From the NCBI GenBank assembly GCA_017460955.1, contig JAFTZY010000048.1:1-64000 (forward strand): a DNA stretch of 64,000 nucleotides, written 5' to 3'. Both the position numbers and the translations under genes were made by a program. Below, piece by piece: positions 4,178 to 13,651 of the stretch. The DNA comes from Oscillospiraceae bacterium (GTDB lineage: Bacteria; Bacillota; Clostridia; Oscillospirales; Ruminococcaceae). Within the stretch, counting starts at the first letter, position 1. The number at the start of each line of letters is the position of its first letter. The notes beneath the pieces are model-generated. The model was not told the origin of the DNA. It made no database searches and was given only the letters and a program-made list of their open reading frames with translations.

Positions 4178-4215
4178 AAAAAAAAGACCCGGAGGCAGCA
4201 GTGCTGCTTCCGGGT
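4178..4215 (-). terminator. Rho-independent terminator of the sortase/SpoIID operon
   Basis: Stem ACCCGGAGGCAGC (4187-4199) pairs with 4203-4215 and is followed on the minus strand by eight Ts (4178-4185). A weaker T-rich tract on the plus side means it may also stop the small gene at 3849. Confidence 0.85.
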
Positions 4216-4232
4216 TTATTGGTTTGTCTGGA

Positions 4233-5819
4233 TTATTCGATCACCGTATCCACAACGGGATCGGCGGGAGCCTCGGGCTCGGCCGGAACCTCCGGTTCTA
4301 CCACAACGGGAACGGGAGTCTCCTCCACAACTGCGGGCGTATCTTCCTCCACCTCTGCAGGGAGCGTCGGCACGGGCTCGTCATACTCGTCATACCCCTC
4401 TGCCGGGTCCGTAGCGGGCTCCGGAATGGGATCGGCGATCGTTTCAATCGCGGTCTCCTGCTCAGTGGCAGCGGCGGGTGTGGGCGCTTCCACTTCTGCG
4501 ACACTGTGCTTATCTTCGGTGACCTCCAGCACGCTGGCGGCATCGGTCATCTCCTCTGCAGCAGCCGCTGCCGTGGCAGCTTCTGTCGGCGTCATGGTCG
4601 GATCCTCGATCTCAGGACCAGAGGCTGCGATCTGATCGGAAACAGAGCAGATGTAAGTAAATTTCGGCGATTTGAGTCCGAGTGCAGCACGGAAGGCATT
4701 GCCGCGGACCGTCACCTGACCATCGATCACAACGCGGTTGACGTAGCCGCCGTTGCCCTCAATGATGGTGATCCAGCCTGCCGGATTGGAGGAAAGCCGG
4801 ATGCCGTAGGCGCTCTGGAGTCTGGCTCTGAGCTGATCGACAGAGAAGTACACCACATCGCCGTAGTGCGGATCGTAGGCTGCATCGTAATCGCTCGATA
4901 CACTGCGCAGGTACGGAATATCCTGGTTGAACACGTCGGAGCAGTTGGCAGTAATGCCGCCGCTCGATGCATAGAACATCGTCAGTGCATAATTGCCGTT
5001 GTAATACAGTGCCTCACCGAGCACGGAAGCACATGCATCGATGATATTCTGCGGCGGATTGGGCTTACCCTTGAGGTCGGCCGCATCATTGCCATGGTAC
5101 TTCATGTAGGTGTAAACAGCGACCGCCTGTGCCTTGATGGCCTCCGTGTGGAAGGATGGCCCGACCTCACGGTTGACGATCTCAGCGACCTGACGGAGCA
5201 CATTGCCAGGAACGCCCTGTACCTTGACCGCTTCGGTCTCCGCTGTGCCGGTGTTCATCAGCGTAGTACCTGGATAGTAATGGAACAGGATGTCTTGATA
5301 ATTCCAGCCGGCATTGATCGCATAGAAATTGGCGCCGTTCTGGCTCATGCCCACGCCGTGGCCGTAGCCGTAGGTAGAGAAGGCAAAGTAGCCATCGGAT
5401 ACGCTGGAAACGGCGGAAGGTGTCGGCGCACTCGAGTACACGACAGCATCTTCGGCCGCAGCGGGGCTCTCTGCAATGAACTCCGCATTCTCAGCATCGG
5501 GATTCTGAACAGCACGGTAGGAGATCAGCGAAAAGCTGTCATCATAGGAGTCCAGATCGGCCTTCCACCAATCCGTGGGTGTGTACTCCTCCTCGCTGAT
5601 CTCTGCTGTATGGATGACAGTGACGGTACTGAGCGGCTCTGTGGCGGCTTCCTGCACAGCTTCCTCAGTTTCCGACGTCTCCGACACCTGGGTCGGAGCT
5701 TCTTCTGCAGCGGCTTCGGTTGCAGTTTCCGCGATCACTGTGTCAAAATGACAGCAGCAGACCAGCAAAAGCGCCGCCAGACCGAACGCTGCGCGTTTCT
5801 TAGGTTGATCCATATTCAT
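4233..5819 (-). CDS. Secreted SpoIID/LytB-like protein with circularly permuted domain and acidic Pro-rich tail
   Basis: The 528-residue protein has an N-terminal export signal (AAFGLAALLLVCCC), an acidic Ala/Glu/Thr linker, then a SpoIID/LytB domain in unusual order. The segment that normally ends the domain (GHGVGMSQ at 153-160, HYYPGT at 180-185) comes first. The segment that normally starts it follows: VPGNVL, the expected catalytic Glu at about 218 in NREVGPSF, and EAIKAQAVAVYTY. The later pieces SSGG (285-288) and LGLKSPKFT (380-388) end it. SpoIID is a peptidoglycan lytic transglycosylase acting on stem-less glycan. The last 140 residues are Glu/Pro/Val/Ala-rich without LPxTG. An ATG two codons upstream (5825) is possible, but GGAG spacing favours 5819. 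It is the third gene after two class B sortases (64-base gap). Confidence 0.88.
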   Translation of the reverse strand: MNMDQPKKRAAFGLAALLLVCCCHFDTVIAETATEAAAEEAPTQVSETSETEEAVQEAATEPLSTVTVIHTAEISEEEYTPTDWWKADLDSYDDSFSLISYRAVQNPDAENAEFIAESPAAAEDAVVYSSAPTPSAVSSVSDGYFAFSTYGYGHGVGMSQNGANFYAINAGWNYQDILFHYYPGTTLMNTGTAETEAVKVQGVPGNVLRQVAEIVNREVGPSFHTEAIKAQAVAVYTYMKYHGNDAADLKGKPNPPQNIIDACASVLGEALYYNGNYALTMFYASSGGITANCSDVFNQDIPYLRSVSSDYDAAYDPHYGDVVYFSVDQLRARLQSAYGIRLSSNPAGWITIIEGNGGYVNRVVIDGQVTVRGNAFRAALGLKSPKFTYICSVSDQIAASGPEIEDPTMTPTEAATAAAAAEEMTDAASVLEVTEDKHSVAEVEAPTPAAATEQETAIETIADPIPEPATDPAEGYDEYDEPVPTLPAEVEEDTPAVVEETPVPVVVEPEVPAEPEAPADPVVDTVIE

Positions 5820-5882
5820 CTTCATACTCCATATGTCATCCGGAACGCTTCGCGCACCGGGATGCGCCCTACAACAGGTGCA

Positions 5883-6740
5883 TTAAGTGTCGGTTTCCGC
5901 TGCTGCCTCCTCAGTCACAGCTTCCGTCGGCGGCTCCGTGAAATCCTCTGCTGTTTCACCGGGCCGGAGCCTTCTGCCGATCACAAGGAATCTGGAATCA
6001 TCCGCATCGGAATAGCAGGTCGAGAGCGTCACCAGCTGGTCGCCGTACTGCACATCCACGGGGATGGTCGTCAGATTTTTGCTGCGGACATGTTCGATAA
6101 AGTCGTTGAACTCTGCCTCGTCTGCAAACTCCTCCATATCCCAGTATCGCCACTGGGCTTCCGCACTGCCGTCCGTGATCACAAGGCCGAAAATCACATA
6201 GGTATAGCGCGCATAATTGGATTCCATTTCAATGAACGGCGCTTCCTTGTAGTAGGAATAATCCTGCCGGTAGCGCCGGAGGGACCCGAACATCGTATTG
6301 TTGGCCATATTGTGCCCATACAGGATGATGTTGTCCGACTGTGAGGCCTCGTCGAAACCGAACACATCCCGATAATCCATAAACACCGTACCGGCACGAT
6401 GCGGTGTATGGTCAAACGCCTTATTCAGATAGAAATCATTGTCGTCAGACTGCACGATCGGGTTGTCCACCCGCGTTCCGGGAATGGTGATCCAGCCAAC
6501 GGTGTCTGCATTGCGCTGCAGCAAGACCTTGGCACGCCCCGTCAAACCGTTTTCCGGCCCGAAGGTGCGCTCATCATCCGTCGGCAGTTCCGTCGGCGGC
6601 TGTGTCGGGAGCTCCGCCTGCATCGCAGAATCCGTCGCAGGCTTTCCGGATGCATTGGAAAAGTAGCATAGTCCTCCCACACCGGCGATCAGCGCGGCAC
6701 ACACCGCACCGACAGCAATGATTTTTCTTTTTTTTGCCAT
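5883..6740 (-). CDS. Class B sortase
   Basis: The 285-residue membrane-anchored transpeptidase has a Lys-rich start and one N-terminal TM helix (about 8-27), a Pro/Thr linker, then the sortase fold. The catalytic triad is visible: His143 in YGHNM, Cys242 in TLSTC and Arg250 in SRFLVIGRRL. GWITIPGT and the long insert before the Cys are class B hallmarks. Class B enzymes attach proteins to peptidoglycan or build pili. No protein in this operon carries an obvious C-terminal sorting signal, so the substrate lies elsewhere. AAGGGATG precedes the ATG. The gene follows a second sortase by 21 bases. Confidence 0.93.
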   Translation of the reverse strand: MAKKRKIIAVGAVCAALIAGVGGLCYFSNASGKPATDSAMQAELPTQPPTELPTDDERTFGPENGLTGRAKVLLQRNADTVGWITIPGTRVDNPIVQSDDNDFYLNKAFDHTPHRAGTVFMDYRDVFGFDEASQSDNIILYGHNMANNTMFGSLRRYRQDYSYYKEAPFIEMESNYARYTYVIFGLVITDGSAEAQWRYWDMEEFADEAEFNDFIEHVRSKNLTTIPVDVQYGDQLVTLSTCYSDADDSRFLVIGRRLRPGETAEDFTEPPTEAVTEEAAAETDT

Positions 6741-6761: not shown

Positions 6762-8213
6762 TTAACCGTATGGTACAAACTCCGCATCCGGGTCGTACGT
6801 GTTTTTATGCCATTTATAATAGCTGTTCGGCCATTTGATATTGGGGTTTGCAACACTTGTGGTACCCTCCTCAAGGGATTCCCCGTCTCGCAGCAGCCGT
6901 GCGAACACGACGAGTCTGCCTTCGGTGAAGGTACTGTTGCAGGTGGAAAGTGTCAGCAGCTGATCGCCGTATGCAATGTCCACGTCGGTCAGTCTGACGG
7001 TCCTGCGTTTGATCTCGTTGACATAATCATAGAACTGCTGCTCGTCATCGAAATCAAGAGTATTCCAGTAATCGAACCTGGTGTCCGTTTCATCATCAAT
7101 GTCCACCAGGATCATTGCGAAGATCTTGTACTTGTACTTTTTATAATTGGAATTGAGCTCGACGATCGGATGGGCGTCATAATACTCGGCATCGTTGATA
7201 TAGTATTTCAGACTGCCGAACATGGCATAGTCATGCATATTATGGCCATAGATGATGAGGTTCTCCGAATTTTCCGCCTGCTTCTCACCGGCAACCACAT
7301 AGTCGAAGTTGTTGCGGTAGTCCAGAAAAATGGAGCCTGGCCTTGCCTCCTCGAGCTGAATGTTTCTGTGCAGATAGTACTCGTTGCCGTCTTCCTGTCC
7401 CCTTTTTTGCAGCACGGGATACCCGATCCGAGTTCCCGGGATCGTGATATACCCGACCACATCCGGATTGACTGCCAGCAGATCCTCCACACTCGGAAGG
7501 AGCCGGTAGTAGGTGGAGATATTGTTCTCGCTTGCGACTGCTTCATCCGCATCCGTTCTGCGCTGCCTGCGGACCACAAAATCATCATTCAGGACCTTGT
7601 TGCGGTAATTGTCAATAAAATAATCACCGATGAGGCACAGACACACGATGAAGATCGCTGTTGAGACCAGAAAAATCGACTTGCGGATCGCTTCAAATAC
7701 GCTGTCACCCTTCTGCGGGAACAGTCCCCTCAGCCGCTTGCCAAGAGGCACTTTCTTTCGTTTCTTCTTTCTCTTTTTCTTTTTTTCGTTTTGCTGTTTT
7801 CCGGGTGTCTTCTTTCCGGATCTCTTTTTCTTGCCGGTACGCTTTTCCGTCTTCTTTTGTTCCGTTGTTTCTTTATTCGGGGGTGACTCGGAAGGAGCGT
7901 CTGCTGATTCCGATGCTTCCGGATCAAATGGCGGATCCGGATCCTCCTGCGCGTTCTCCCGCTCCTGTAAGGCGGCGCGGATCGCAGCAAGCTTGTCCTG
8001 CTTTGTCAGTGTCTGTGCATCTTGTGCCGATGCCTCTGCAGACGCTTCCTCCGCTTCAGGCTCATGCTCTCCGTCAGTCTCTTCTTCAGGGACCGGTCCG
8101 TCCGATACCTTCTCGGGGACTGTTTCCGCAGTCTCTTCCTCGGTGATCGGCGTATCCGTCTCCTCCTCAGGAACCGGTACGGCAGAAGGCTCGAAAGCCT
8201 CGTCCTTGCTCAT
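6762..8213 (-). CDS. Class B sortase with a long charged cytoplasmic N-terminus
   Basis: This 483-residue protein has four parts: an acidic Glu/Pro/Thr-rich region (1-115), a very basic Lys/Arg-rich block (119-160, e.g. NEKKKKRKKKRKK), a TM helix (179-199) and a class B sortase domain with His324 (YGHNM), Cys425 (TLSTC) and Arg433 (EGRLVVF). The start at 8213 has GGAGGAGG immediately upstream; a longer in-frame extension lacks one. The 175-residue cytoplasmic extension is far longer than in typical sortases and could bind a cytoplasmic partner or nucleic acid (inference). It is the first gene of the operon, followed by the second sortase and the permuted SpoIID protein. Confidence 0.92.
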   Translation of the reverse strand: MSKDEAFEPSAVPVPEEETDTPITEEETAETVPEKVSDGPVPEEETDGEHEPEAEEASAEASAQDAQTLTKQDKLAAIRAALQERENAQEDPDPPFDPEASESADAPSESPPNKETTEQKKTEKRTGKKKRSGKKTPGKQQNEKKKKRKKKRKKVPLGKRLRGLFPQKGDSVFEAIRKSIFLVSTAIFIVCLCLIGDYFIDNYRNKVLNDDFVVRRQRRTDADEAVASENNISTYYRLLPSVEDLLAVNPDVVGYITIPGTRIGYPVLQKRGQEDGNEYYLHRNIQLEEARPGSIFLDYRNNFDYVVAGEKQAENSENLIIYGHNMHDYAMFGSLKYYINDAEYYDAHPIVELNSNYKKYKYKIFAMILVDIDDETDTRFDYWNTLDFDDEQQFYDYVNEIKRRTVRLTDVDIAYGDQLLTLSTCNSTFTEGRLVVFARLLRDGESLEEGTTSVANPNIKWPNSYYKWHKNTYDPDAEFVPYG

Positions 8214-8530
8214 GAATCCTCCTCCATCAGTAAATGTGCAGTTTCTTGAAAGACAAATGCTGCGGCCAGAAGCCGACCCGGCCCCTTGCAGCAGAGCATT
8301 CCGACACAGGCTGACCTGACAAAACCGAAAGGCACACATTGCCTGTCGCGGCACTGCGTTCCTCCGCACCTGTCCGGGCGGATCACCTTACAGCTTTGCA
8401 AGCAGCTATCGTTACATGGGGTGTAAGCGGAAGGTCTCCGATACACCGACAACTGATGTCAGATACGCAGAAATGCGACCGCCCGTGCAGCCTCCTGCAA
8501 CGGCGGCAGTCAGCCCATTTCTCCTTAATA
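8214..8530 (-). promoter_or_regulatory. Long untranslated leader of the sortase operon
   Basis: About 310 bases lie between the promoter (8531-8560) and the first sortase start (8213). The stretch is as GC-rich as coding DNA and contains several self-complementary segments, for example TGCTG (8293-8289) with CAGCA downstream. No convincing open frame, T-box or known riboswitch motif was recognised. The function is unknown. Confidence 0.4.
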
Positions 8531-8560
8531 ATTTTACAACACTTGTAACCATTCTGTCAA
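8531..8560 (-). promoter_or_regulatory. Sigma-A promoter of the sortase operon
   Basis: Reading on the minus strand, TTGACA (8560-8555), an 18-base spacer and TAAAAT (8536-8531). Beyond it, 8561-8677 is AT-rich with several TTTGTAAA-like words but no gene. Confidence 0.6.
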
Positions 8561-8677
8561 GGTTTGCGGTTTCACAATCTGAGAAATCAATAACATACAC
8601 GAAAAGTGTCTGTTGAAATGCAGCAGATATGACAAATATTTTGTAAATATATTTTAAATTTGTAAAATCTAAAAACA

Positions 8678-9856
8678 TCAAAAAACCACGCGGAAGCGCT
8701 TGCATTCCGTTCCTTCCACAGCCTCGCGGATCATCTCCTCAAAGTCACCGGCGGCCTGGGCAGCCTCAATGGCGGCAAGCTGGGGGCGGATCTTGGGGTG
8801 GCGGGGCGTGAAAACGGTGCAGCAATCCTCATAGGGCTGGATGGAGATATCAAACGTATCGATCCTTCTGGCGATCTCGATGATCTCTGTCTTGTCCATG
8901 CCGATGAGCGGGCGGAACACCGGTACATGGCAGACCGCGTCCGTGCAGACCATCGCGTGCAGTGTCTGGCTGGCGACCTGTCCGACGCTCTCACCGGTAA
9001 TGAGGGCAAGTGCCTCCTCCTTCGCAGCGATCTCCTGCGCGATCAGCATCATCAGGCGGCGCATGAGGATGGTAAAGTACTCCTCCGGGCAGCGCCGGCG
9101 CAGCTCCTCCTGGATCTTTGTGAAGGGAACACAATAGAAGTTCACATCGCCGCAGTAGTCCGTCATCTTCTGGCAGAGCTGCTCGACCTTCAGGCGTGCT
9201 CTGTCTGAGGTGTAGGGCGGGCTGACAAAATGGATGGCGGAGACCTGGATGCCGCGCTTTGCCATCATGTACCCTGCCACAGGGCTGTCGATGCCGCCGG
9301 AGAGCAGCAAAAGTGCCTTGCCGCTGCTGCCGAGCGGCAGACCGCCCGCGCCCTTGAGCTTGTCCGCATGGATATACGCATTGGTATCCCGCACCTCTGC
9401 GACAACGGTCACATCGGGCTCGTGGACATCCACATGCAGATGCGGGAATGCTTCACTGATCGTTCCGCCAAGCTCCCGGCAGATCTCCGGGGACTTCATC
9501 GGGAACGCCTTGTCTGCACGCTTGGCCTCGACCTTGAAGCTCTGCGCATCCTCGAACGTTTCCTTGAGGTATGCGACTGCCTTCTTTTGCATATCGGCAA
9601 AGTCCTTCTCACAGACACAGGCACGGCAGATCGTTGCAATGCCGAACACCTTGCGCAGACGCGACACGGCTTCGTCGAGGTCCGTGCCCTCCTCCTCCGG
9701 CTCGATGTAGATCGTGGACTGCGCGCTGGTATAGATGAATCTCCCCAGCGGGCGCAGACGGTATTTGATCTGCTTGAGCAGAATGTCCTCAAAGCTGTAG
9801 CGGTTCTGGCCCTTGAGTGCCATTTCACCGAATTTTACAAGAATTACCTCTTTCAT
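8678..9856 (-). CDS. thiI: tRNA 4-thiouridine sulfurtransferase ThiI
   Basis: The 392-residue protein has the N-terminal ferredoxin-like and THUMP domains (1-165), then the PP-loop ATP pyrophosphatase motif SGGIDSPV at 186-193. It adenylates U8 of tRNA and transfers sulfur to form 4-thiouridine. The C-terminal rhodanese domain of the E. coli enzyme is absent, as in most Firmicutes, where a partner cysteine desulfurase supplies the persulfide directly. That partner is the gene just upstream (17-base gap). It may also feed sulfur to thiamine synthesis, although shorter ThiI forms lacking rhodanese mainly act on tRNA. Confidence 0.95.
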   Translation of the reverse strand: MKEVILVKFGEMALKGQNRYSFEDILLKQIKYRLRPLGRFIYTSAQSTIYIEPEEEGTDLDEAVSRLRKVFGIATICRACVCEKDFADMQKKAVAYLKETFEDAQSFKVEAKRADKAFPMKSPEICRELGGTISEAFPHLHVDVHEPDVTVVAEVRDTNAYIHADKLKGAGGLPLGSSGKALLLLSGGIDSPVAGYMMAKRGIQVSAIHFVSPPYTSDRARLKVEQLCQKMTDYCGDVNFYCVPFTKIQEELRRRCPEEYFTILMRRLMMLIAQEIAAKEEALALITGESVGQVASQTLHAMVCTDAVCHVPVFRPLIGMDKTEIIEIARRIDTFDISIQPYEDCCTVFTPRHPKIRPQLAAIEAAQAAGDFEEMIREAVEGTECKRFRVVF

Positions 9857-9873: not shown

Positions 9874-11016
9874 TCAATGCATGTTCTGATGGATGAGCTG
9901 TGCCTGCCCCTCGCGGATACCGCACAGAAGGGCTTCGATCGCCTCCGGGGTTGTTTCCTCGGAGAAACTGCAGCGGATCGCGCAGTCCGCTTGTTTTTCC
10001 GGGATGCGGTACGCGGACAGCACGCCGCTTCTGGCGCCCTTTGAGCACGCCGAGCCACTCGAGACGTAGATCTCCCGCTGCTCAAGATAATGCAGCATGA
10101 TCTCCGAACGGATCCCGTGGACGGAGAAATTCACGATATAAGGGGAGCCCTCCGGTTCACTGTTGAGGGTGATGCCGTCCATGGAGGAGAGCGCTGCAAG
10201 CAGTTTCCGGCGCAGGTCCTGCGTCTGTGCAAAGCGTGCATCGATCGTCGGCTGCATGTACTGCACCGCGGCACCGAAGCCGCAGATGAGCGGCACGCTC
10301 TCCGTTCCCGGGCGCAGTCCCCTCTCCTGCTTTCCGCCCGTGGTGACGGGAATGAGCCGTATCCCCTTGGCGGTGTACAGTGCACCCACACCCTTGGGAC
10401 CGTGGATCTTATGCGCACTCATGGACATCAGATCGGCGTGGAGCGCCGATGCCTTGACGGGGAGCTTCAAAAACCCCTGTACGATGTCGCAGTGCGTGAT
10501 GACATGGGGGTACCGGCGCTTGACAGCACGGAAGGTCTCGGCCACGGGGAGGATCCTGCCCGTTTCGTTTTCCACGAGCATCATGCTGATTAGGCACGTC
10601 TTGTCCGTGACGGCGTCCAGGAAATCCGCGGCATGAAAGACGCCGTTCTCATCGGGGAGAATGCGCGTGATGGAAAAGCCCTGTGCCTCGAGAGCCGTGA
10701 TCGTCTCCCGCACGGAGGCATGCTCGACTGCCGAGGTCACGATGTGGGGCCTGTGACGGCCGTAGGCGGATGCAGCGCCACGCAGTGCCAGGTTGCTGCT
10801 CTCCGTTGCACCCGAGGTGAACAGGATGCTTTCCGGCTGTGCGCCGATGGCACCAGCCACGACGGCACGCGCCCCGTCCATTGCAAGCTGTGCATCGAGT
10901 CCCACTCGATGCAGGGAGGACGGATTGCCGTAATGCTCCCGCAGACATGCTGTGATCGCTTCGATCGCCTGTTCACACGGCTTTGTGGTAGCCGCATGAT
11001 CCAGATAGAACGCCAT
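9874..11016 (-). CDS. Cysteine desulfurase (NifS/IscS family), ThiI partner
   Basis: The 380-residue PLP enzyme starts MAFYLDHAATTKP, has the ATES motif (FTSGATESSNLAL), the PLP-lysine segment MSAHKIHGPKG and the mobile-loop cysteine in SSGSACSKG. It removes sulfur from cysteine and holds it as persulfide. The short loop round the Cys is of the group I (NifS/IscS) type. Its place directly before thiI (17 bases) matches the NifZ-ThiI pairs of Bacillus, so the likely role is tRNA thiolation rather than bulk Fe-S assembly (inference from context). AGGAGTG precedes the ATG. Confidence 0.93.
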   Translation of the reverse strand: MAFYLDHAATTKPCEQAIEAITACLREHYGNPSSLHRVGLDAQLAMDGARAVVAGAIGAQPESILFTSGATESSNLALRGAASAYGRHRPHIVTSAVEHASVRETITALEAQGFSITRILPDENGVFHAADFLDAVTDKTCLISMMLVENETGRILPVAETFRAVKRRYPHVITHCDIVQGFLKLPVKASALHADLMSMSAHKIHGPKGVGALYTAKGIRLIPVTTGGKQERGLRPGTESVPLICGFGAAVQYMQPTIDARFAQTQDLRRKLLAALSSMDGITLNSEPEGSPYIVNFSVHGIRSEIMLHYLEQREIYVSSGSACSKGARSGVLSAYRIPEKQADCAIRCSFSEETTPEAIEALLCGIREGQAQLIHQNMH

Positions 11017-11201: not shown

Positions 11202-11233
11202 ATTCATTGTCGGGTCACGACAACCAAGCTAAT

Positions 11234-11320
11234 GCGGATATGGCGGAATTGGCAGACGCGCTAGCTTCAGGTGCTAGTCCTCGCAAGGGGGTGAAGGTTC
11301 AAGTCCTTTTATCCGCACCA
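11234..11320 (+). tRNA. tRNA-Leu (anticodon CAG), copy 1
   Basis: The acceptor stem GCGGATA (11234-11240) pairs with TATCCGC (11310-11316), and discriminator A plus encoded CCA follow. The anticodon loop TTCAGGT gives CAG, reading CUG. The long variable arm is typical of a class II leucine tRNA. The flanks form an inverted repeat that would hold precursor ends together (11220-11228 with 11325-11333). Confidence 0.97.
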
Positions 11321-11350
11321 TTACCTTGGTTGTTTTGCCCGCCGATTTAT

Positions 11351-11437
11351 GCGGATATGGCGGAATTGGCAGACGCGCTAGCTTCAGGTGCTAGTCCTCG
11401 CAAGGGGGTGAAGGTTCAAGTCCTTTTATCCGCACCA
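11351..11437 (+). tRNA. tRNA-Leu (anticodon CAG), copy 2
   Basis: An identical 87-base copy, 30 bases after the first, with the same CAG anticodon and encoded CCA. It is cotranscribed with copy 1 and followed at once by a terminator. Confidence 0.97.
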
Positions 11438-11466
11438 CCCGGTACCAAAAGTACCGGGATTTTTTT
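11438..11466 (+). terminator. Terminator of the tRNA-Leu pair
   Basis: Stem CCCGGTAC (11438-11445) and GTACCGGG (11451-11458) with a five-base loop is followed by a run of seven Ts. Confidence 0.92.
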
Positions 11467-11502
11467 ATGCAATTTGCCGTTTCATTTTTTTGACAAAACC
11501 TA

Positions 11503-11531
11503 TTTACAAACTTTCACTTCCATGTTATAAT
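11503..11531 (+). promoter_or_regulatory. Promoter of the aquaporin gene
   Basis: TTTACA (11503-11508), a 17-base spacer and TATAAT (11526-11531). The leader is about 55 bases and ends in a strong GAGGAGGAA ribosome site. Confidence 0.75.
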
Positions 11532-12317: not shown

Positions 12318-12357
12318 GATCCCCTGTTCCACAAGGATGGAACAGGGGATCTTTTTT
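12318..12357 (+). terminator. Terminator of the aquaporin gene
   Basis: A 13-bp stem, GATCCCCTGTTCC (12318-12330) with its complement at 12339-12351, is followed by six Ts. It reaches into the stop codon of the convergent dockerin esterase. Confidence 0.92.
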
Positions 12358-13651
12358 AACGCTCAGCAGTCTGTGTCAGGAGCCGCTTCATGTACGTCAG
12401 ATCCAGGACATCGAGCCGTCCGTCGTCGTTCATGTCGCCGCATTCCGGCGCCTTCAGTGTACCAAGACGCACGAGGTATTTCTGCATGGCCACCACATCC
12501 GCCATTCCAAAGGTGCCGTCGGCAGTGACATCGCCGGGATCGAAGCTCTCCCCCGTACTGTACACGCGCTCGTACATCGTCTGCGCCCACATCTGCCGCA
12601 TGGCATCATACCCCTCCGAGGTCGGATGCACGCCGTCGGAGAGCTCATCGGGATGCTCCCGGAAATAGCTCTCGAAATCCGGTCCCTGCACGACCTCCGG
12701 GTATTCCTCGTAGATCCGGTCGATCACGGCGTTATAATTGTCCAGATAGGTGCTGACACCCTCCTCCGTGGCAAAGGGGATCTTCGGCAGCACCGGGACT
12801 TTCCCGGCATCGAGCACGGCACGGATCATATACACCGTGTTCTCGTAATAACCCTCCGGACCCGTCTGGTTGCCCCAGGCATCGTTGGTGCCGTAGGCGA
12901 TGCTGACATATTTCCCCGGGAATGTCGAGAGCCAGCGGTCGATGTTCTCCTTCCCCTGTGTGCTGGTGATGCCGCCGATGCCGCCGTTTTCCTGGATGGG
13001 AAAATACCGGTCGTCAAGCTGACTGACATAGGTCGCATAGCCCGTGCCATAGCAGTTGTGCATCCCGCCGGCGGTGATGGAATCGCCGAAGAAGATCCAG
13101 CTGTCCGTCACGCCGTCCGACACATCATGGATGTCAAAATTAATGGCCGCCGAGCCGCTGTCCCTGCCGTCGGCACCGGTGACGGTGATGCGGATCCACT
13201 GATAGCCCTCAAAATCGATCACATGCTGCCGGGAGCTGAGGGCATTGTCCTCCACTGTGACAACACTCTCCCAGCCGTCCTCCGGATAGGTGCCGCCCGG
13301 TGCGGCATTGACCTCGATGGTGTACGCGGAGGGCTCCTGGTTGCGGGAAACGTAATTCCCGATCACATCATAGGAGCTGGTCGTATAGAACACTGCATCG
13401 ATCGTGCGGCGCTGCTCCTCCGGGACGCCGGACAGGTCATAGGCAAGGTAGTCGGGCACCTGTGCCGACCAGAAGGAATAATAGTAGGCATCGTTACCGT
13501 AGGCGGCGCTCCCCTGCCCCGCCCCGGAATAGACCGGGCAGTCCCGGCTGATGACCGGATTCGGCTGCACCTGTGCTGCTGCACACAGCGGCATCGCTGT
13601 AAGGCATATTGCAAGCCCTGCGGCAAGACCCGTGATTCGTTTGTACATCAT
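12356..13651 (-). CDS. Secreted SGNH/GDSL esterase with type I dockerin
   Basis: The 431-residue protein has a signal peptide (about 1-27, ending CAAAQ), a beta-rich N-terminal domain (30-180), and an SGNH hydrolase domain. Block I is FFGDSITAG with Ser191, Gly at 225-228, Asn256 in YGTNDAWGN, and Asp339/His342 in LSDGVHPT. The C-terminus (372-428) is a dockerin: two Ca-binding repeats GDVTADGTFGMADVVAMQKYL and GDMNDDGRLDVLDLTYMKRLL, minus their linker. A jelly-roll domain followed by SGNH recalls CE2 acetyl-xylan esterases, but the CE family is not certain. It probably removes acetyl groups from hemicellulose or pectin as a cellulosome subunit. It is divergent from the dockerin pectate lyase, a likely functional neighbour. 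Confidence 0.9.
   Translation of the reverse strand: MMYKRITGLAAGLAICLTAMPLCAAAQVQPNPVISRDCPVYSGAGQGSAAYGNDAYYYSFWSAQVPDYLAYDLSGVPEEQRRTIDAVFYTTSSYDVIGNYVSRNQEPSAYTIEVNAAPGGTYPEDGWESVVTVEDNALSSRQHVIDFEGYQWIRITVTGADGRDSGSAAINFDIHDVSDGVTDSWIFFGDSITAGGMHNCYGTGYATYVSQLDDRYFPIQENGGIGGITSTQGKENIDRWLSTFPGKYVSIAYGTNDAWGNQTGPEGYYENTVYMIRAVLDAGKVPVLPKIPFATEEGVSTYLDNYNAVIDRIYEEYPEVVQGPDFESYFREHPDELSDGVHPTSEGYDAMRQMWAQTMYERVYSTGESFDPGDVTADGTFGMADVVAMQKYLVRLGTLKAPECGDMNDDGRLDVLDLTYMKRLLTQTAER

Follow-up and report, generated by a model that had tools for sequence, protein, structure and literature searches.

A circularly permuted SpoIID-family domain at a conserved class B sortase locus

We analysed a stretch of 64,000 nucleotides from an Oscillospiraceae bacterium (GenBank assembly GCA_017460955.1, contig JAFTZY010000048.1, positions 1 to 64,000), referred to below as the window, in which a minus-strand gene encodes a protein of the SpoIID family with its conserved segments in circularly permuted order. 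The gene belongs to a conserved cluster for NifS, ThiI, CinA, class B sortase (SrtB) and SpoIID, whose members in the window are listed in Table 1. A first-pass annotation, made from the sequence alone, had placed the gene at 4233-5819, which begins at its second methionine; the gene lies on the minus strand, and read from the first methionine it extends to 5825; residue numbers below follow the resulting product. In that numbering the motif GYGHGVGMSQ occupies residues 153-162 and HYYPGT residues 182-187, followed by the presumed catalytic glutamate that the annotation had put near position 218, here residue 220, and then by KAQAVAV (231-237), SSGG (287-290) and LGLKSPKF (382-389). The two adjoining genes do encode class B sortases, as had been proposed, scoring 160.9 and 179 bits against a TIGR03064 cut-off of 153.75. 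The CinA-like fragment measures 97 amino acids, compared with at least 163 for the CinA gene of relatives. The gene beyond ThiI we take to encode a NifS-like protein.

Table 1. Coordinates of the permuted SpoIID gene, its parts and its neighbours in the window
Position	Strand	Feature	Basis
4185..4217		15-base-pair inverted repeat followed, on the minus strand, by a T run; likely operon terminator	
4233..5825	-	Circularly permuted SpoIID-domain protein, 530 amino acids	Open reading frame, profile and phmmer matches
4236..4646	-	Acidic, Pro-rich tail, residues 394-530, without sorting signal	
4647..5207	-	SpoIID N-terminal and middle blocks, residues 207-393	phmmer, profile
5166..5168	-	Glu220 codon, aligned with the SpoIID catalytic Glu	Alignment
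5208..5252	-	Linker between former C and N termini, residues 192-206; predicted short strands	
5253..5402	-	SpoIID C-terminal block (GYGHGVGMSQ...HYYPGT), residues 142-191, placed first	phmmer, profile
5517..5570	-	Conserved N-terminal WWKADLxxY motif, residues 86-103	Alignment
5730..5825	-	Predicted type I-like signal peptide (residues 1-32) with cleavage at VIA/ET	Judged by eye from sequence
5883..6740	-	Class B sortase 2, 285 amino acids, with catalytic His and Cys	
6762..8213	-	Class B sortase 1, with catalytic His and Cys; start codon probably the ATG at 8213; a long charged stretch at the N terminus precedes a hydrophobic one	
8412..8705	-	CinA-like fragment between ThiI and the sortases; apparent decayed remnant	
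8678..9856	-	ThiI	
9874..11016	-	NifS-like gene; kept upstream neighbour of ThiI	Open reading frame and locus comparison

The blocks of SpoIID proteins run in the order N-terminal, middle, C-terminal; those of the window protein run C-terminal, N-terminal, middle, and two comparisons agree on this. Searched with phmmer against the PDB, the protein matched the SpoIID structure 4rwr in three stretches that are not collinear: residues 148-191 with chain positions 277-319, residues 200-241 with 61-100 (weak when taken alone, at 7 bits) and residues 258-391 with 142-269. Against a profile of 266 positions made from 114 ordinary-order sequences, it matched positions 215-264 at residues 141-191 and then positions 30-216 at residues 210-393; nearly the full profile is covered, each part once. 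All 38 window-type profile rows, and the protein of locus L052, show this C-first pattern. One of these rows (W_L054) is shortened at its C end and still has the pattern; in two others (W_L043 and W_P0119) the first stretch extends upstream, and part of the profile is nominally covered twice. A second domain copy in ordinary order, named at first pass as a possible refutation, was looked for among the window-type rows and L052, and none was seen. The window protein scores above the cut-offs of TIGR02669 (122.8 against 83.3 bits, in two stretches) and PF08486 (27.9 against 23 bits, over residues 213-253 only), and below that of TIGR02870, the equivalog model for stage II sporulation protein D (135.1 against 234.75 bits). 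By score and key residues it carries a SpoIID-family domain and is filed as a permuted variant. We conclude that the domain is circularly permuted and not truncated, as the first-pass annotation had argued.

We searched 396 genomes of the window's family with a query spanning the junction (residues 140-245). Both halves were matched in at least 45 genomes, the window's own included, at E values of 4.4e-27 or better, and in one more genome (G001) at 1.3e-18, which places the permuted order in at least 46 of the 396 genomes and in 11 of the family's 126 genera, with all eight genomes of the window's own genus among them. The remaining matches listed for this query fall mainly in its first half. 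A further junction-spanning match, in G089, contains internal stop codons and proved on inspection to have the ordinary order (L132). In a strict motif test on the 212 database homologues listed, the signature precedes KAQ, with one of each, in 201; the other 11 miss one motif under the pattern used, and none has the opposite order. Sources named among these homologues include Oscillospiraceae, Ruminococcus and Porcipelethomonas. The recurrence of one segment order across so many genomes and genera excludes an assembly error, and a chance match is likewise excluded. We found no report of a permuted SpoIID, or of any coupling between SpoIID and class B sortase or CinA, in the open-licence full text of PubMed Central. 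The domain family itself is known; the segment order is new relative to the solved SpoIID members that we found.

We then compared 21 permuted loci (L004 and L035 to L054, L052 included) with 36 ordinary-order loci. Every permuted locus has class B sortase genes just upstream of SpoIID, two at 13 loci and one at eight (one of these at a contig end), and ThiI lies upstream at 19, none being seen at L039 while L051 starts at a contig end. Other genomes keep the operon, a point that the first-pass annotation had proposed to check; the sortase pair seen in the window is not a constant part of it. In sister genera the NifS-ThiI-CinA-SrtB locus ends in a SpoIID gene of ordinary order, of which the permuted gene is the positional counterpart; a search of the window's genome found no ordinary SpoIID copy at the window locus. 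Because ordinary-order SpoIID is tied to sortase at this same position, the coupling is likely to predate the permutation. The first-pass annotation proposed that a permuted enzyme coupled to sortases could be a distinct wall-insertion system; the sortase tie is well supported. Permutation and coupling are nevertheless two separate matters: sister genera have the ordinary order in the same operon, so the system does not depend on the permutation.

Sortases accompany 26 of the 36 ordinary loci, 13 as separate upstream genes and 13 fused to SpoIID in one chain; none was seen at ten ordinary loci, of which three lie on stretches that are short or cut off at an end. At one locus (L102), four consecutive sortase genes lie upstream of an ordinary-order SpoIID. 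Twelve of the 13 fused chains measure 941 to 1473 amino acids, the other (L093) being cut by a contig end, and 12 of the 13 have a CinA match within the same chain; L090, L092 and L099 also have a separate CinA gene. At L085, L101, L104, L122-L125, L131 and L133, CinA, a hydrophobic segment, class B sortase and ordinary SpoIID follow one another in single chains of 1161 to 1473 amino acids. Pfam domains of CinA and SpoIID also occur together in the single chain of a database protein (P0278), with a stretch between them that looks sortase-like by eye. Outside the family the arrangement is kept at two loci, one with ordinary (L139) and one with permuted order (L138). All 57 separate sortases, among them both of those in the window, have the catalytic His and Cys, as do all five joined to CinA alone. 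Among the sortases fused to SpoIID, eight of 13 keep both residues and five are without Cys (L090, L092, L093, L099 and L104, the last with His and Cys both replaced), and in these five the SpoIID domain is kept. Since SpoIID persists where the sortase has decayed, the glycan cutter may be the core of the module.

The call of a signal peptide cleavage site in the window protein follows the -3/-1 rule. The tail of 137 amino acids is, as the first-pass annotation described it, acidic and proline-rich (37 Asp or Glu, 20 Pro, one Lys, no Arg), and it contains no hydrophobic segment. It is not conserved: ten of 22 permuted proteins, the shortened L054 being excluded, stop no more than eight residues past the domain. 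A C-terminal hydrophobic segment is absent from all 22, and with it the combination of motif and segment that marks a sortase substrate. The predicted signal peptide and the missing segment suggest that the window protein is exported and not itself anchored by sortase. Each of the 91 aligned rows has the lysine that corresponds to Lys88 of the WWKADLxxY leader motif. The leader fits 18 of the 21 permuted loci and three ordinary-order loci (L126, L127 and L130), which have the KA..Y motif, in its WWKA form in L130; a similar WYKA stretch occurs in P0323. A leader common to permuted loci and these ordinary relatives suggests that the permutation happened downstream of it. The motif sits where model confidence is low, and might be a docking or acceptor site.

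In an AlphaFold2 model of the permuted protein, the predicted local distance difference test score is at least 90 at 187 of 373 residues. The best PDB matches of the model are the SpoIID structures 5i1t and 4rwr. The structural alignment to 5i1t ends at residue 307 in the permuted model and at 352 in the model of an ordinary relative, as a permutation predicts, provided that the aligner follows chain order, which we assume. When residues are paired by means of the profile, secondary structure coincides at 192 of 226 positions (41 of 47 within the moved block), whereas circularly shifted controls reach 117 at most. The permuted domain is predicted to fold as an ordinary SpoIID. According to two reports (PMC6635528, PMC6221140), characterised SpoIID enzymes cleave glycan strands once the peptides are removed, and have one essential glutamate, E88 in B. 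subtilis and E101 in C. difficile. The aligned glutamate is present in 79 of 79 rows of our alignment (38 window-type, L052, four with the alternative cut described below, 36 ordinary), and so is the signature histidine. This invariance makes it likely, at the level of sequence, that the permuted SpoIID is enzymatically active.

Our favoured interpretation, which we consider probable, is that the window protein, a SpoIID domain with its C-terminal block first and the predicted ordinary fold, cuts the glycan strands of peptidoglycan on behalf of the class B sortases from the same operon. The protein would be exported by its signal peptide, and Glu220 would act on glycan strands; local cuts near a membrane-anchored sortase, at the outer face of the membrane, would give that sortase room, or nascent or opened wall ends, for protein attachment. 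A role in wall insertion is plausible on these grounds. That the gene order is an artefact of assembly or annotation, a suspicion that might arise from the metagenomic assembly of several named sources, is refuted for the window type by its recurrence among the genera and database proteins counted above, and we give the idea virtually no weight. An engulfment or spore enzyme with an incidental sortase neighbourhood seems improbable to us. SpoIID does act in engulfment, and 'sporulation protein' occurs among several of the few names given by the sources, but the window protein falls short of the engulfment equivalog score, the sortase linkage is conserved and often a fusion in sister genera, and the genome has two other PF08486 places, namely an ordinary SpoIID on another contig and a relative of SleC (contig C26, L003 403-1803 (-), best PDB match 9h68). 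We rate about as low the proposal that the protein is not a working single-chain enzyme but a swapped dimer exchanging blocks between two molecules, or a domain that only binds glycan. In its favour, only a short linker joins the two blocks, and the permuted model fits SpoIID less tightly than a control model. Against it, confidence in the single-chain model is high for most of each block, and a glutamate and a glycine-histidine signature kept in every row, permuted rows included, are hard to explain without catalysis.

A search with the L052 protein found four database proteins (P0234, P0243, P0255 and P0259) with a different cut, matching profile positions 171-264 and then 28-158; this cut lies about 50 profile positions from that of the window clade. 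There are thus three permuted kinds besides the window's own: L052 and L138, which have the window-clade cut site, and this alternative-cut group. In a tree built on canonical-order columns, the window clade is a single group (100/100) that falls within ordinary sequences, many with a place in the operon, and the sequences nearest to it have the ordinary order. Approximately unbiased (AU) tests rejected the grouping of the window clade with L052 (p 0.00016 and 0.0053), with L138 (p 0.0157), with both (p 0.00099) and with the alternative-cut group (p 0.0075 and 0.0024), as well as the union of all permuted kinds (p 0.00089). Permutation appears to have arisen at least twice, perhaps four times, the alternative-cut group being known from protein sequences alone. 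Each of these events would have happened in situ, an ordinary domain being duplicated and trimmed, and the closeness of the domain ends may have helped. We regard it as an even question whether SpoIID, as the last member of the NifS-ThiI-CinA-SrtB locus, is naturally prone to circular permutation, a hot spot with two to four independent events, two cut sites and an enzyme active throughout, all within one sortase-linked wall-editing machine that is a single CinA-membrane-sortase-SpoIID polypeptide in sister genera. The AU tests did not reject a grouping of L052 either with L138 (p 0.304) or with the alternative-cut group (p 0.119). L138 and L052 have long end branches (1.61 and 1.14, respectively), and each is known from one genome. 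The separate origin of L052 and L138 is the weaker part of the case. The same points would suit a single permutation from which the one-genome forms and the alternative-cut group also descend, later drift or recombination with ordinary genes making the event look recurrent as a long-branch artefact. We find this doubtful, since every joining of the window clade with another permuted kind was rejected, the second cut site lies elsewhere in the profile, and the closest relatives of the window clade have the ordinary order.

A wall hydrolase that is circularly permuted in nature, and that sister genera still have in ordinary form at the corresponding locus, would make it possible to compare an enzyme directly before and after permutation. 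If the event was repeated, this would suggest closely spaced termini in the SpoIID fold and a tolerance of new ones. The gene fusion is a tangible clue that class B sortases act together with a dedicated cutter of glycan strands, which bears on how surface proteins pass a closed wall. Elsewhere in the window, a GDSL lipase with a dockerin domain (12356-13651 (-)) suggests a cellulosome in this organism, and one open reading frame (11207-11530 (+)) contains one short peptide stretch twice; it is probably spurious and spans two transfer RNA genes.

Compared with SpoIID/LytB proteins (TIGR02669, PF08486; 5i1t and 4rwr), the window protein shares all segments, the aligned glutamate, the GHGxGxSQ block and the predicted secondary structure elements; it differs in having the C-terminal block first and in falling below the engulfment equivalog cut-off. 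With SleC, the spore cortex-lytic enzyme (9h68), it has part of the SpoIID fold in common, whereas the SleC relative on C26 has the ordinary order and, by eye, peptidoglycan-binding repeats, one stretch of which matches 1lbu. The closest tree relatives of the window clade include the SpoIID proteins of L102, L126 and L130, which also adjoin a class B sortase, and P0323, which is known from its sequence; all four differ from the window clade in their usual segment order. The CinA-SrtB-SpoIID chains of L085, L101, L122 to L125, L131 and L133 have the same three domains in the same sequence as the genes of the locus, with the sortase His and Cys kept; they differ in being one fused polypeptide, with SpoIID in its ordinary order.
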